The notes under the pieces were generated by a model. That model did no database searches and had not been told where the DNA came from. It saw only the letters and a list, made by a program, of their open reading frames with translations. Position numbers and translations under genes: made by a program. Source: a virus. From it: a DNA stretch of 32,342 bases. Every line of letters begins with the position of its first letter. The stretch's first letter is position 1. Shown here piece after piece: positions 2,538-9,163 of this stretch. The DNA lies in IMG/VR virus record IMGVR_UViG_3300002153_000010, positions 1 to 32,342 of that record; one strand, 5' to 3'.

Positions 2538-2567
2538 CAAATGTACAATTTTATATTGAAATATCAA
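2538..2567 (-). promoter_or_regulatory. Promoter P3 (TTG-19-TACATTTG) for the terminase unit
   Basis: On the minus strand TTG (2565-2567) and TACATTTG (2538-2545) are spaced by 19 bases. The -7 box matches the Bacteroidota consensus TAnnTTTG perfectly. A transcript would begin near 2531, just upstream of ATG 2512, and cover the RarA-like gene, terS and terL. The -33 element overlaps the end of the glycosyltransferase gene. Confidence 0.7.
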
Positions 2568-3304
2568 AAAGGAATTTTTAAAGTTCTCATATATTCGTGC
2601 TTTCTTGTTGCAAGTACTGTATCTTTTTTAAGATTAATAATTTCTCCATATTTTTTTCTTAACTGGAGTGTGTCATTTTTTTCTACTTCTTTCGTTCTGT
2701 AAGATGCACAACCACCTACATTTCCAAAGGTATCTGTTCCAACTACTGCAAATCTTGTATCTATAAAGCAATGTCTGTGATGGTAGGCATTTAACGCACA
2801 AATTTGGTAGTCTTCTACTACTTGCATATCGGTATCGTAATATAGTTTAGATCCCTCCAACATACCAATAGTTCCACCAACATAACCAGTTCGTTTGATT
2901 GGAGTGTGTTCTTGATATTGTGCAGGACTAGGGTTCTTATTTAATCCGAACAAATAACATCCCATTATTTTTGCTACATTACCTAACCATTGTACCATTT
3001 CATATGCTTCGTCTGGTAACATTTTAGCATCCTCTCCTACTTCTGTGTATAACCTAAAGAATGATTTAATATCATCATCTACCATTAGTACATTAGGGTA
3101 CTGTTCATAGATCCATTGTCGCTTTGCTGTTAATCCAACAACTTCATCAGGATGTCCGATTATTTCTACATCAGGGTGTGCTGTTTCATATTCTTCCTTT
3201 TGAGAGTTTGGTACACAAATCTTAGCATTATCTATTGCCTTCAATGTTGGTACTCTACCTGCCCTTTTATGTGATGGAATTATAACTTCTATTTTGATGC
3301 CCAT
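2564..3304 (-). CDS. TAGT-like GT-A glycosyltransferase
   Basis: A 246-residue GT-A type transferase. Residues 5-15 form the first beta strand and loop (EVIIPSHKRAG), GLTAKRQW lies at 57-64, the metal-binding acidic motif MVDDD at 74-78, VEDYQ at 163-167 and GGCASYRT at 197-204. The order resembles TET-associated glycosyltransferases (TAGT), which put sugars on modified bases in phage DNA; that subfamily call is from memory of the motif pattern. It overlaps the ParB-like gene by 16 bases and ends the PIG-L/WbqC/ParB/GT cassette. Alternatives are a cell-wall or capsule glycosyltransferase. No hydroxymethylase, TET enzyme or DNA methylase was found in the window. Confidence 0.75.
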   Translation of the reverse strand: MGIKIEVIIPSHKRAGRVPTLKAIDNAKICVPNSQKEEYETAHPDVEIIGHPDEVVGLTAKRQWIYEQYPNVLMVDDDIKSFFRLYTEVGEDAKMLPDEAYEMVQWLGNVAKIMGCYLFGLNKNPSPAQYQEHTPIKRTGYVGGTIGMLEGSKLYYDTDMQVVEDYQICALNAYHHRHCFIDTRFAVVGTDTFGNVGGCASYRTKEVEKNDTLQLRKKYGEIINLKKDTVLATRKHEYMRTLKIPF

Positions 3305-3903
3305 AATTTCTGAAAGTCTTTAACATTAATAACCATTGCTTTGCCCATATGCGAATTTTTATAAGACTGTGCCTTTCCGATCTCCAAAACAGTTTCTAAA
3401 TAGGTTGTGTCTATATCATTGTCACTTGTAATAATTACACAAGAATATTTTTCGCTAAACTTTGGTATAACTGGCATCTCTGCATTACTATCATCGTACT
3501 TTTGAAATTCTTCCTCGAATTCATCCAAGAACATTCCTAATTCTGCCTCCTTAAATCCTACATCTAACAGAAATTCCTTATCGAAATGATTTGCCAACAT
3601 ATCGAAATCAAACTCCCCAGTATTTTTATTTAGCCTTACATTTAATTCTTTCTCTCTTTCTAATTCAAGATCCAATTCAACACAAGGGATCTCTTTAAAC
3701 CCTAAGTCTTTTGCTATTCTAAACCTTTGGTGTCCTCCAATAATTACACCTTCTCTGCCTTTGTGAGTATTGATCACTATTGGTTCTGCAAATCCGAATC
3801 TTTCTATGCTGTCCTTTATTTGAAAGTATTGCTCTTTCTTTAGTTGACGAGGATTGTATTCTGCTCTTTTAAGATCTGTTACTCGATAATTTACTACTTT
3901 CAT
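3289..3903 (-). CDS. ParB-like nuclease domain protein
   Basis: A 204-residue protein with an N-terminal ParB/sulfiredoxin-like domain: YNPRQ at 16-20, GFAEPIVIN at 37-45, GGHQR at 56-60, GFKEIPCVEL at 68-77. Residues 83-98 (REKELNVRLNKNTGEF) match the segment after the ParB core in stand-alone ParB proteins linked to DNA modification genes. The C-terminal half (about 120-204) is acidic and unrecognised. It overlaps WbqC by 4 bases (ATGA) and the glycosyltransferase by 16. The position suggests a role in sensing or processing modified DNA, not partition, since there is no ParA. The role is inferred. Confidence 0.85.
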   Translation of the reverse strand: MKVVNYRVTDLKRAEYNPRQLKKEQYFQIKDSIERFGFAEPIVINTHKGREGVIIGGHQRFRIAKDLGFKEIPCVELDLELEREKELNVRLNKNTGEFDFDMLANHFDKEFLLDVGFKEAELGMFLDEFEEEFQKYDDSNAEMPVIPKFSEKYSCVIITSDNDIDTTYLETVLEIGKAQSYKNSHMGKAMVINVKDFQKLWASK

Positions 3904-4583
3904 ATATGTTTATTTAATTTATTTTTAATACTTGAACCTTCGTGCATTAAACCATCTAGTACTGACATATACCCTACAAAGTTAGTAGAGTATTGCTTGT
4001 ATTCTTGCTGCACATATTCGTGATGGTATATTTGTATTCCGTTTCTTTCAAATTCTGTTTCGTTTAAGTAATCCTTTCCTGAAATTCCTGCTATGTAAAC
4101 TTTTGCATTTGTCTTCATACATAATTCTAACACCATTTCATCTTTAGAGTGTTGAAGATCCAAACTGCTTGACATTATCTGTTCAACTTTTATATCTAAA
4201 GCATTTAGGTAAAAATCTAAAATCCTCAAATTGTATGTCTTTAAGTGATCATCTTCACTAATCAGCAACTTCTCTAAATCTGGATAAAACTGGTCAAAAA
4301 ATTTTGCCTTACTGTATGCTTGTTTGATTGTCTTAATCATTTTACTTTTCCAGTTAAGATCATTTCTTATTTTTATTTTATTAATTGGAGTGCCTAAACT
4401 ATATTTTTCTACTGGAATTGTGATCCACTTCTGACCATCTTTGCCTAAAATTTGATTTCTATTTTGAAAGTAGTTTTTTCTATATGCAACAGAATCTAAT
4501 ATTACTAACTTATCTGCTTTACAGATCTTATCGAAATATCCTAGATAGGACATAAATTCTGGCTGATGTGCTGTAACTATCAT
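3900..4583 (-). CDS. WbqC-like family protein
   Basis: A 227-residue protein of the WbqC-like family, first named from O-antigen clusters; biochemical activity is poorly defined. The N-terminus shows the family signature AHQPEFMSYLGYFDKI (5-20), then LDSVAYRKNYFQNRNQI and a WITIPV strand at about 53-58. It overlaps both neighbours by 4 bases (ATGA), so translation is coupled to PIG-L and ParB. Its occurrence between a deacetylase and a glycosyltransferase points to sugar or amino-sugar chemistry. Family call is firm; substrate is unknown. Confidence 0.85.
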   Translation of the reverse strand: MIVTAHQPEFMSYLGYFDKICKADKLVILDSVAYRKNYFQNRNQILGKDGQKWITIPVEKYSLGTPINKIKIRNDLNWKSKMIKTIKQAYSKAKFFDQFYPDLEKLLISEDDHLKTYNLRILDFYLNALDIKVEQIMSSSLDLQHSKDEMVLELCMKTNAKVYIAGISGKDYLNETEFERNGIQIYHHEYVQQEYKQYSTNFVGYMSVLDGLMHEGSSIKNKLNKHI

Positions 4584-5191
4584 TTCGTTATTTTTCTAAC
4601 AATATAAAATTTTTCTGCATATTCTACTCCACATTCCATCCCCCTCATTCTTGCTAAAGTAACTATGCTTTTTTTGTTTAACGGAGCAGGAGATCGTTTT
4701 ATTTGTGATGTGTTTGTTAAAAATCCTTCCATTTTTTGTGTTATCGTGTCCGTTATATCAACGTACCAAGCACCTCCCTCGATCCCTGAATTTACGAAAG
4801 GATATTCATACATTGCCACCATCGGAACTGGAACTACATCCTGCCTTAATCTAATTGCTGCCATACAACAATCGTGTATTTTTTGGTGGTCTTGATGGTG
4901 TGATCTATAAGGTATGAACAATTCGTCATAATGATTAACTTCTAACAAGTTATCAATATAGGCTATCAAATCTGCACTAGGCATTAGATCATTTCTACCA
5001 TCTTTATCATCATACAAAGTAAAAGTGTTATTTACTCCTACAATCTTCTTCATTTTGTTGTGTTCATACAACCTTTCTAAAGTAAAATTTACCAACAGAA
5101 CATCTGCTTCGATATTATCTTTAGCCATATAACCACCTACACCTAAAACTTCATCGTCAATATGTGGAGAAACTACTAGAATTTTTTTCAT
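4580..5191 (-). CDS. PIG-L/LmbE-like deacetylase
   Basis: A metal-dependent N-deacetylase of the PIG-L/LmbE superfamily, which removes acetyl groups from GlcNAc-type sugars. The 203 residues carry the signature SPHIDDEVLGVGG at 8-20 and a second metal site HHQDH at 98-102, both as in active enzymes. There is no signal peptide, so it should act in the cytoplasm. It is the first gene of the overlapping four-gene cassette: 1-base TAATG overlap with the upstream gene and 4 bases with WbqC. A substrate such as a GlcNAc-decorated base or nucleotide sugar is inference. Confidence 0.92.
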   Translation of the reverse strand: MKKILVVSPHIDDEVLGVGGYMAKDNIEADVLLVNFTLERLYEHNKMKKIVGVNNTFTLYDDKDGRNDLMPSADLIAYIDNLLEVNHYDELFIPYRSHHQDHQKIHDCCMAAIRLRQDVVPVPMVAMYEYPFVNSGIEGGAWYVDITDTITQKMEGFLTNTSQIKRSPAPLNKKSIVTLARMRGMECGVEYAEKFYIVRKITK

Positions 5192-5646
5192 TAGTTTGCT
5201 ATTAAATTTCTATCTACTTTTTCGATAGGGTTTTGTTCCATTTCGTAAATAACATCTTCATACATAACTCGTACTTGAAGATAAATTTCGTCTATATTTT
5301 CAGCAGTCAACAATGGTGTTTTATCAATGATATATTTTGATTGTAAACCTTGATCCATAAGACCAGTTTCTCCTAAAACATCGTTTAAATTTCTAGATAA
5401 AGATGGATTAAATTTAACTGTCATATCCCAATCGTTTAAATGATGGATTACTGTTGCGTGATTCATAGGCTTTCCGTTTTCTTTAAACCATTCTGCAATA
5501 CCTGATTTTGTCATTCCCAAATACTTATAAAAAACAAACATTAATAATGCTCTTGCTTCTACATATTCCCTTACCCTAGTCTGTTTAAATATATCTAGTT
5601 TTGTGATCGCCATTAACCTACTGGCTATTGATTCCTGCATCCTCAT
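5191..5646 (-). CDS. DnaA domain IV-like DNA-binding protein
   Basis: A 151-residue protein with a DnaA C-terminal-like HTH: RVREYVEARALLMFVFYKY at 24-42, then a helix-turn-helix ending in MNHATVIHHL at 61-70, equivalent to the DnaA signature DHTTVLHA. No AAA+ domain is present. The family binds 9-mer DnaA boxes; exact TTATCAACA sites (one mismatch from the box) occur at 361, 7938 and 11615. It could act as a phage replication initiator helper or as a regulator. It touches its neighbours by single-base overlaps at 5191 and 5646. ATG 5640 is an alternative start. Confidence 0.75.
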   Translation of the reverse strand: MRMQESIASRLMAITKLDIFKQTRVREYVEARALLMFVFYKYLGMTKSGIAEWFKENGKPMNHATVIHHLNDWDMTVKFNPSLSRNLNDVLGETGLMDQGLQSKYIIDKTPLLTAENIDEIYLQVRVMYEDVIYEMEQNPIEKVDRNLIAN

Positions 5647-6446: not shown

Positions 6447-6514
6447 TCTTTATTTGGTTTAAATAATATTAATAAAAGTAATACTGCTATGAGTAATGAA
6501 ATATCGTATGTCAT
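6443..6514 (-). CDS. 23-aa membrane micropeptide
   Basis: An ORF of 23 codons encoding MTYDISLLIAVLLLLILFKP and three more residues. Residues 6-18 are uninterrupted hydrophobic, followed by FKPNKE, the pattern of a single short membrane helix with a charged inside end. Its ATG overlaps the TGA of the 162-aa nuclease gene (6511-6513), and its own TGA (6443-6445) overlaps the ATG of the exonuclease, so it is coupled on both sides. Such exact packing makes chance unlikely. Function unknown; superinfection or lysis-timing roles are only speculation. Confidence 0.65.
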   Translation of the reverse strand: MTYDISLLIAVLLLLILFKPNKE

Positions 6515-6999
6515 ACTATTTCTTTTTGATATGCTTTGCTAAATTTTAATTCTACTAGATCCCAATCCGAAACCTCCTTATGACTAAATAGCCACCATTC
6601 TGCCATTTGACATTCTAGATCATCCGAATCTGGTCTAATAAATAAATAGTGACTTGTATTCTTGTCTTTTAAGTGAGCCTTTTCATTTACTCTAACATTT
6701 GATCCGTAAGCGTTAATTCCCTTAACATCAATTCTCATATCGTTAACTTTAATATCACAATCCTTGATTGGATCTACACCTAGCATCTGTGTAGCATCGT
6801 ACTTGTATCTGTGTGACCAGAAAAAATATTGTGCTATCATTTCTGCTTTACATCCCAATTGACTAACTCTTAGATTTGGTCTAGCATATTTTGGAAACTT
6901 TTCTGCTGTGTATAAATTAACAGTATCTCTAAGTCCTCCAATATACAATGCTTGTTCGTTTATCAAATGTGGGTAGTAGAATACTCCGTTTTTTTTCAT
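6511..6999 (-). CDS. PD-(D/E)XK nuclease-like protein (162 aa)
   Basis: The 162 residues show a restriction-endonuclease-like core: E53 in GCKAEMIAQYFF, D82 in DCDIKV, then MRIDVKG with D91 and K93, and NVRVNEKAHL at 101-110. This is the E...D...DxK arrangement of PD-(D/E)XK nucleases; phages often carry such a protein in the recombination block. Substrate is unknown; host DNA breakdown or Holliday-junction cutting are possible. Both ends are coupled by 4-base ATGA overlaps to tiny ORFs (42 aa upstream, 23 aa downstream). Confidence 0.7.
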   Translation of the reverse strand: MKKNGVFYYPHLINEQALYIGGLRDTVNLYTAEKFPKYARPNLRVSQLGCKAEMIAQYFFWSHRYKYDATQMLGVDPIKDCDIKVNDMRIDVKGINAYGSNVRVNEKAHLKDKNTSHYLFIRPDSDDLECQMAEWWLFSHKEVSDWDLVELKFSKAYQKEIV

Positions 7000-7968: not shown

Positions 7969-8379
7969 TTATTTTTTATAAACATAAGAAGCAATTGATT
8001 CAGGCAACAAATAAACTGATTTAGTTTCTTTTTTATTACTCCATAGTGTAGTAGAAGGGCAATACTTTTTTATTTCTTTAAAATCCTTTATACCATCTAA
8101 CCAATACATATATGTACCTTGTGGATCACTAACGTAATATATTTTGACTATATCATTGTCAAGTTTCATTAAATTATCATATTTTTTCTTCTCGAGCATT
8201 TTATCTTCGTAGTATTTATTTCTAAATTTCATTTCGATAACGCACTTTCTTCCTTTAGGAGTTAATCCAACTGCATCGTATATTTCATTGCTTTTTGTAT
8301 GCTCCAATTTCCAACCATCAAAAGTATTTAAGATTAAGATTACTGCTTGTTCAAACTTTTCAATTTTAGTTAGATTCAT
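7969..8379 (-). CDS. PD-(D/E)XK nuclease-like protein (136 aa)
   Basis: A 136-residue protein with an N-terminal helix (IEKFEQAVILILN) and a nuclease-like core: D35 in IYDAVGLTPKG and E49-M-K51 in VIEMKFR. D followed after 13 residues by ExK fits PD-(D/E)XK folds such as Holliday-junction resolvases or VRR-type nucleases. The C-terminal part shows no known motif. It overlaps the 65-aa gene by 14 bases and ends just before promoter P2, so it closes the operon running from the helicase region. Fold assignment is probable; activity is not established. Confidence 0.65.
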   Translation of the reverse strand: MNLTKIEKFEQAVILILNTFDGWKLEHTKSNEIYDAVGLTPKGRKCVIEMKFRNKYYEDKMLEKKKYDNLMKLDNDIVKIYYVSDPQGTYMYWLDGIKDFKEIKKYCPSTTLWSNKKETKSVYLLPESIASYVYKK

Positions 8380-8563: not shown

Positions 8564-8693
8564 TTCTTTTGAATTTTATTTTATTCCATTTATCTCGTCT
8601 AGCATCACAACCACAATCAGGATCAATTTTCTTCCAGATCCACCTGATCCCAGTCCACTTTGTTATAAAATATACTAAATCTCCTAGTTTCAT
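8556..8693 (-). CDS. Small DCGCD-motif phage protein (45 aa)
   Basis: A 45-codon ORF: an N-terminal helix MKLGDLVYFITKWTGIRWIW then DPDCGCDARRDKWNK and a basic end. The form 'amphipathic helix, TGI, DCGCDxRRxKxN' is a recurring small phage protein of unknown role. Two cysteines four residues before RR could bind metal. Its ATG overlaps the TGA of the sigma factor gene (8690-8692), a 4-base ATGA coupling. Confidence 0.75.
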   Translation of the reverse strand: MKLGDLVYFITKWTGIRWIWKKIDPDCGCDARRDKWNKIKFKRNG

Positions 8694-9163
8694 ATCAAAT
8701 TTTTTTTAACTTTTTTTATGGTTCTTTTTATTGAGTGATAAGAGATCCCAGTTTGATCTGACAACTGCAACATACTGATCCCTTGAAGACATACTATTTT
8801 GAAAATTCTTTGATCGTACCAATGAAGGTCGTTTAATTTTTCTAACAATTCATCCGAAAATTCTACATCATTAATTTCTGCTTCATTTGAGATTTCAAAT
8901 ATTCTGTCATTATCTACATTGACATATTTTTTTTCTTTTCTAATTTCATCAATAAACAAAGTTCGTAAAACCTTAAAAACAAAGTAATAATTTACCTCGT
9001 CTTTGCTATATAGAATACTGGCTTTACCTTTATTCTCCCATTCATTTAATTTAATGTACATATTCTGTACAACATCTTCTGAAATTTCCTTAGAGCCACC
9101 AAATGACCGAACCATTTTAATCCAGTCTTGGTGTTTTTTGTAAAGTAACTCTATTAGCCTCAT
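8690..9163 (-). CDS. Sigma-70 family (ECF-like) sigma factor
   Basis: A 157-residue protein with the two-domain plan of an ECF-like sigma factor. Region 2 lies at about 10-80, including EDVVQNMYIKLNEW and a FKVLRTLFIDEIRKEKK helix; region 4 lies at about 110-157, with LQGISMLQLSDQTGISYHSI as a helix-turn-helix. Region 3 is absent, as in ECF factors. It would redirect host RNA polymerase, perhaps to the phage late promoters (see the ACGTTATAT motifs at 18474, 22603 and 30246). The start lies four bases past the helicase gene stop. Confidence 0.8.
   Translation of the reverse strand: MRLIELLYKKHQDWIKMVRSFGGSKEISEDVVQNMYIKLNEWENKGKASILYSKDEVNYYFVFKVLRTLFIDEIRKEKKYVNVDNDRIFEISNEAEINDVEFSDELLEKLNDLHWYDQRIFKIVCLQGISMLQLSDQTGISYHSIKRTIKKVKKNLI

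Follow-up and report, generated by a model that had tools for sequence, protein, structure and literature searches.

What do the four overlapping genes that lie ahead of the terminase genes in the viral contig IMGVR_UViG_3300002153_000010 do, and on which substrate do they act? The window, which here means the whole stretch of DNA analysed, is this IMG/VR record of 32342 bases. On its minus strand four open reading frames (ORFs) follow one another with overlaps of 4, 4 and 16 bases and encode a PIG-L/LmbE-family de-N-acetylase (5191-4580, 203 aa), a WbqC-family protein (4583-3900, 227 aa), a ParB_N-domain protein (3903-3289, 204 aa) and a TAGT glycosyltransferase (3304-2564, 246 aa). The best-supported reading, which we consider likely but by no means certain, is that this cassette encodes a DNA hypermodification pathway of the phage, whose product is DNA carrying a processed amino sugar. 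It is based on the identities of the families, their catalytic motifs, the recurrent co-occurrence of the genes in changing orders, the link of PIG-L and TAGT to TET enzymes and the link of WbqC to amine-making enzymes. From gene linkage we infer DNA as the substrate in the window phage, as well as the sugar, the order of the steps, the reaction of WbqC and the role of ParB. The cassette would thereby add a further variant to the known forms of DNA glycosylation in phages.

Enzyme families of the cassette

The glycosyltransferase matches the Pfam TAGT family PF20691 with an E-value of 1.1e-13 (52.1 bits against a cut-off of 27.5, profile positions 2-205 of 205). In PHROGs it matches phrog_842, beta-glucosyl-HMC-alpha-glucosyltransferase, at 4.5e-27. 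Residues I9, P10, S11, R14, D76, D77 and D78 are invariant in an alignment reaching down to 23% identity, the DDD motif corresponding to positions 76-78. The TAGT members of phages T2 and T6 belong to a GT-A fold family and glycosylate phage DNA (PMC13216743, PMC13390438). Solitary TAGT homologues, without α- or β-glycosyltransferase (GT), occur in 288 of 753 phage genomes and were left as an open question (PMC13216743); the cassette offers a concrete gene context for part of this class. The T-even enzyme shares its Pfam and PHROG family with that of the window. However, it puts a second glucose on glucosylated 5-hydroxymethylcytosine, whereas the window has no detectable hydroxymethylase (PF00303).

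The identity of the transferase bears on the main competing explanation, namely that the cassette remodels a host cell-surface glycan, for seroconversion or receptor masking, with the TAGT protein acting as an ordinary GT2-like transferase and with PIG-L and WbqC tailoring an amino sugar. We regard this as unlikely. The TAGT assignment made in the initial annotation was upheld by the profile comparison, which placed the protein in PF20691 and in no surface-polysaccharide transferase family. Moreover, Pfam revealed no flippase, polymerase or bactoprenol transferase among the genes of the window.

The PIG-L protein matches PF02585 just above the family cut-off (E-value of 9.5e-7, 29.8 bits against 28.2) and gives a BshB1-like match at 1.4e-6. 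Its best relatives in the PDB are BshB1 and diacetylchitobiose deacetylases. Residues H10, D12, D13, H99, D101 and H102 are invariant among eight aligned phage proteins; identity in the PIG-L and TAGT alignments falls to 23-30%. With its catalytic PHIDDE and HQDH motifs intact, the protein is a predicted de-N-acetylase. The PIG-L protein of Vibrio phage PG28, a homologue of L012:7842-8519, was called a lysis protein (PMC9067683), whereas the conserved neighbourhood points to sugar tailoring.

The WbqC protein covers almost the whole of PF08889 (profile positions 1-214 of 218) with an E-value of 2.3e-64 and 217.7 bits against a cut-off of 21.3. Its AlphaFold2 model has a predicted local distance difference test (pLDDT) score of 95.2 and a predicted template modelling score of 0.91, and its conserved polar residues are Q7, D24, D30, K36, R42, N43, K81, Y90, S207 and D210. 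The ParB-like protein matches PF02195 at 1.2e-9, and its best PHROG is phrog_498 (8e-34), which represents the ParB portion in a family of DNA methyltransferases. The initial annotation had described four overlapping genes with intact PHIDDE, HHQDH, AHQPEF, GGHQR and VDDD motifs; the ORF coordinates bear out the overlaps, every family scores above its Pfam cut-off and all of the motifs are present.

In the mechanism that we propose, TAGT would take an N-acetylated hexosamine off a nucleotide sugar of the host and attach it to a DNA base, or to a sugar already there. PIG-L would strip the N-acetyl group and leave a free amine, on which WbqC would act, most likely by adding an acyl or aminoacyl cap. 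The ParB-like protein, perhaps with a protein carrying the MgsA_C domain, would recruit the enzymes to DNA, and the modified DNA would be hidden from host nucleases ahead of packaging by the adjacent terminase. Under this scheme phage DNA decoration would extend to the deacetylation and recapping of an amino sugar. DNA hypermodification had already been suggested in the initial annotation. That suggestion withstood the checks on the family of the transferase and on co-occurrence in other phages, while its content has changed in that WbqC is now directed to sugar-amine work and MgsA_C is added to the set.

Recurrence with ParB, MgsA_C and TET

Viral contigs were scanned with TAGT, WbqC and PIG-L alignments, and the loci were scored with profiles built in the analysis (L-numbers are the labels of surveyed loci or contigs). 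Relatives of the window keep the order PIG-L>WbqC>ParB>TAGT>MgsA_C>TerS>TerL, with identities of 40-96% for PIG-L and 78-98% for TAGT. The complete four-gene set was found in 20 of the 77 new loci from the PIG-L scan and in 5 of the 74 from the TAGT scan, most other loci holding TAGT with ParB. WbqC, ParB and TAGT were all lacking from 39 of the 77 PIG-L-scan loci, and PIG-L alone does not define the system. Since many distant viral contigs share the set, the association of the genes is not due to chance, and the expectation that the four would be found together in other phages was borne out, reordered and split layouts included. PIG-L-WbqC and ParB-TAGT lie on opposite strands in four loci (L186, L198, L201 and L210), while other layouts are PIG-L-ParB-WbqC-TAGT (L202), PIG-L-WbqC-TAGT (L194, L218) and WbqC placed after MgsA_C (L159). 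The cultured Vibrio phage VH2_2019 has a related cluster arranged as PIG-L-WbqC...GT-ParB. PIG-L adjoins WbqC in 34 of the 43 loci that hold both. The cassette thus seems to be built from two modules, ParB-TAGT and PIG-L-WbqC. A TAGT tree shows at least eight changes for PIG-L and at least eight for WbqC, numbers that are rough because the tree is a quick one with long branches.

A ParB gene immediately precedes 92 of the 110 TAGT genes, and in most TET loci ParB also lies upstream of TET. Both observations argue against the remodelling of surface glycans, and we propose that the ParB-like protein is a putative DNA-targeting partner of the transferase. ParB-TAGT blocks adjoin terminase genes in many loci. 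These persistent partners (ParB, terminase and, in some lineages, TET) are not capsid or tail genes, a point against the glycosylation of a capsid or tail protein with an amino sugar. Glycosylation of mycobacteriophage virions is known (Freeman 2023, as cited in PMC12619734), but we consider this explanation of the cassette very improbable.

The MgsA_C (RarA C-terminal domain)-like protein is encoded on the minus strand at 1904-2512 (about 202 aa from the ATG at 2512; PF12002, 5.5e-12). This domain was found in 48 of 103 TAGT loci without TET, compared with none of 46 TET loci. It travels with the cassette and belongs with the four-gene set as an accessory member. In L186, L198, L201 and L210, TAGT and MgsA_C are separated by a methyltransferase-like gene, and another ParB-domain protein, longer than the first, is encoded ahead of it.

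Phage TET/5mYOX clusters for cytosine hypermodification have reportedly been described by Iyer in 2013, Burke in 2021 and Pyle in 2024, and the last of these is said to have found N-acetylhexosamine on phage cytosine. ParB and TAGT are common to these clusters and the window, and PIG-L joins TAGT in several of the TET clusters found in this analysis, whereas TET was detected neither in the window nor in the majority of the ParB-TAGT loci close to it. Tet_JBP (PF12851) was detected in two of 51 surveyed records, at an E-value of 4.5e-25 in L207 and of 1.9e-6, below the cut-off, in mycobacteriophage Acadian. The genes of L207 are closely packed in the order ParB>TET>PIG-L>TAGT. Those of Acadian follow the order ParB>TET-like>TAGT>PIG-L>TerS>TerL, with gp3 matching TAGT at 6.5e-38. 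Acadian gp2 (L014:813-1691) is annotated as a queuine tRNA-ribosyltransferase, but it has no TGT match and a weak Tet_JBP match; the annotation is probably mistaken and we treated the protein as TET-like. A scan for TET relatives yielded 45 loci. ParB lies upstream in most of them, TAGT occurs in 17, and in four PIG-L stands beside TAGT. Altogether PIG-L, TAGT, TET and ParB occur in five phage records, L207 (the same contig as L224), L243, L260, L261 and Acadian, as DNA hypermodification had predicted. Because PIG-L and TAGT sit inside ParB-TET-TAGT clusters, the partnership of PIG-L with TAGT extends to loci with a clear connection to DNA, and this again counts against a surface glycan as the substrate. 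The TET-linked TAGTs fall mostly in their own separate part of the TAGT tree, and among the TAGT loci surveyed WbqC and TET were never found together in one TAGT lineage.

The ParB-TET-TAGT-PIG-L order fits, without proving it, an action of PIG-L after transfer. In a different scheme, PIG-L and WbqC would act beforehand on a nucleotide sugar or small molecule (e.g. UDP-GlcNAc to UDP-GlcN to an N-acyl sugar), and TAGT would then transfer the finished sugar to DNA. The match of PIG-L to BshB1 and BshB2, which are deacetylases of a small glycoside, is in its favour, as is the company that bacterial WbqC keeps with DegT enzymes, a family that works on nucleotide sugars. We judge this order of events to be rather improbable.

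WbqC and its proposed action on a sugar amine

The DegT aminotransferase and PIG-L families both produce a free sugar amine. Of the 95 viral loci with WbqC, 90 contained one or the other (both in five), as opposed to eight of 77 TAGT loci without WbqC, a contrast whose significance in a Fisher test is not to be taken literally since the 95 loci are mutually related and were partly found through PIG-L. In the loci of the WbqC scan alone, the count was 51 of 55. Bacterial WbqC loci, from a genome scan seeded with an alignment of seven sequences, held DegT or PIG-L in 59 of 80 cases. Among close relatives, four phage loci (L154, L156, L157 and L164) lack WbqC and instead carry, after MgsA_C, an ATP-grasp protein with a PylC-like N-domain, in the position that WbqC occupies in L159. 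The TAGTs of L154 and L156 share 74-76% identity with their counterparts in the WbqC-bearing L158 and L162. Furthermore, a PglD-type acyltransferase adjoins the PIG-L/WbqC/TAGT set in L202 and L218. The DegT and PIG-L neighbours and the ATP-grasp replacement point to an action of WbqC on the sugar amine and, together with the acyltransferase, suggest that it caps this amine. WbqC, a widespread family without settled chemistry, thereby gains a proposed reaction.

Two further candidates were set aside. In L021 (5463-7386) and L160 (8636-10536), two genes replace WbqC between PIG-L and ParB and appear by eye to encode ATP-grasp-like and phosphatidylserine decarboxylase-like proteins, with no support from Pfam or PDB profiles; the AlphaFold2 model of the ATP-grasp-like candidate had a pLDDT of 40 and lent none, and both genes were dropped from the argument. 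WbqC itself was considered as a HIGH-motif (HUP) nucleotidyl-transfer enzyme, because of Foldseek matches to a cytidylyltransferase, FAD synthetase, class I aminoacyl-tRNA synthetase and pantoate ligase. These are weak (E-values of at least 0.1), and hhalign gave 0.6% probability for an alignment to a CTP_transf-like family.

The closest bacterial homologues of WbqC, up to about 40% identical to that of the window, lie beside PIG-L or share a locus with DegT, NeuB and hexapeptide acyltransferases, and this speaks for the tailoring of a surface glycan. These PIG-L-WbqC and DegT-WbqC amino-sugar loci have the adjoining PIG-L and WbqC genes in common with the window. However, their neighbours are sugar-nucleotide and polysaccharide genes, whereas those in the phages are ParB, TAGT, MgsA_C and terminase.

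An analogous arrangement is found in Stenotrophomonas phage DLP3, where PIG-L, WcaG, WecE, a transferase and ParB lie ahead of TerL. The DNA of DLP3 resists 15 of 15 restriction enzymes; the authors of that study raised modification of the host lipopolysaccharide for the transferase (PMC7326821). DLP3 and the window have in common PIG-L, sugar genes, a transferase and ParB just before the terminase. They differ in that the DLP3 transferase is of the GT4 type and that DLP3 has a WecE aminotransferase and a Thy1-like gene adjoining TerL. By analogy, the restriction resistance is indirect support for DNA modification by the cassette and tells against surface-glycan remodelling. The DLP3 Thy1-like protein (L385:11768-12661) is a candidate maker of a modified base. 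Beyond the DLP3 paper, the literature search found nothing relevant on PIG-L or WbqC in phage DNA modification; the three TET/5mYOX studies named above were outside this search, and an earlier mention of PIG-L in TET clusters is possible.

Several observations weigh against DNA hypermodification as the function of the cassette. In the window Pfam detected no enzyme that would hydroxylate a base or modify it in another way, and no more than two of the 51 records contained TET. Bacterial contigs resembling surface-polysaccharide loci contain PIG-L-WbqC pairs as well. The AlphaFold2 model of WbqC gave no Foldseek match to solved structures at an E-value below 0.001. Finally, neither WbqC nor TAGT was matched in the stretch of DLP3 searched, which makes DLP3 an analogue rather than a member of the group.

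Acceptor base and genomic setting

That no hydroxymethylase, TET or DNA methylase is visible in the window had been noted in the initial annotation and was confirmed at Pfam sensitivity. Neither the dCMP hydroxymethylase/thymidylate synthase fold (PF00303) nor the TGT-like DpdA of the 7-deazaguanine pathway (PF01702) was detected in the window or in any of the 51 records. Thy1 is missing from the window and was rejected as a general partner, being present in two of 50 records. C5 and N6/N4 DNA methyltransferases were likewise rejected, occurring in only four and five of the 51 records respectively. No PF00145 cytosine methyltransferase was found in the window or in the TET-bearing records, so that the model probably misses such phage enzymes.

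In the relative L003, TerL is followed by homologues of the genes in the rightmost part of the window, in a largely conserved order. The window is therefore most simply a circularly permuted, near-complete genome of a small phage, and the shortage of base-making genes is thus probably real within the reach of the Pfam models. It is conceivable, though doubtful, that the TET-less ParB-TAGT group, the window phage included, glycosylates a base without a known phage-encoded hydroxyl-making enzyme. Either an unrecognised enzyme would make the acceptor, or TAGT, with ParB and MgsA_C, would glycosylate a canonical base directly. Were this so, the DNA would bear its N-capped amino sugar through a type of modification for which we know of no precedent. 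An acceptor made without TET or hydroxymethylase would be a new way of anchoring sugars on DNA, in small phages.

The cassette had been placed between a DnaA-like gene and the terminase genes. Both neighbours are as described, but the MgsA_C gene, which had not been listed, intervenes before the terminase. The DnaA_C-like (helix-turn-helix) gene (5191-5646, minus strand; PF08299 at 7.7e-7, just below the cut-off) overlaps the PIG-L gene by one base and is the upstream neighbour in near relatives only. Directly downstream of the set, TerS (1519-1956) and TerL (387-1544), both recognised with Pfam on the minus strand, provide context rather than members of the pathway. Between TAGT and MgsA_C, at 2538-2567 on the minus strand, lies the sequence TTG-N19-TAcaTTTG, a form that we take to be the Bacteroidota promoter consensus. 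It is the sole minus-strand match to TTG-N17-23-TAnnTTTG in the window and precedes MgsA_C, TerS and TerL. This promoter-like sequence may mark a transcription boundary after the cassette, where a separate transcript for the terminase unit may begin, although agreement with a consensus does not in itself prove function. It also suggests a Bacteroidota host, and the window is probably the genome of a Bacteroidota phage.

The window also holds portal, protease, tape-measure-like, amidase, holin, helicase, exonuclease and ERF genes. Near the DUF3799 exonuclease, two small minus-strand ORFs (6511-6999 and 7969-8379) show by eye D...(D/E)XK-like motifs (DVKG, EMKFR) and have no convincing Pfam family. 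A small sigma-70-like protein encoded at 8690-9163 on the same strand, with matches to Sigma70_r2 at 1.2e-3 and to r4 at 0.016, both below the cut-off, is a possible phage sigma factor.

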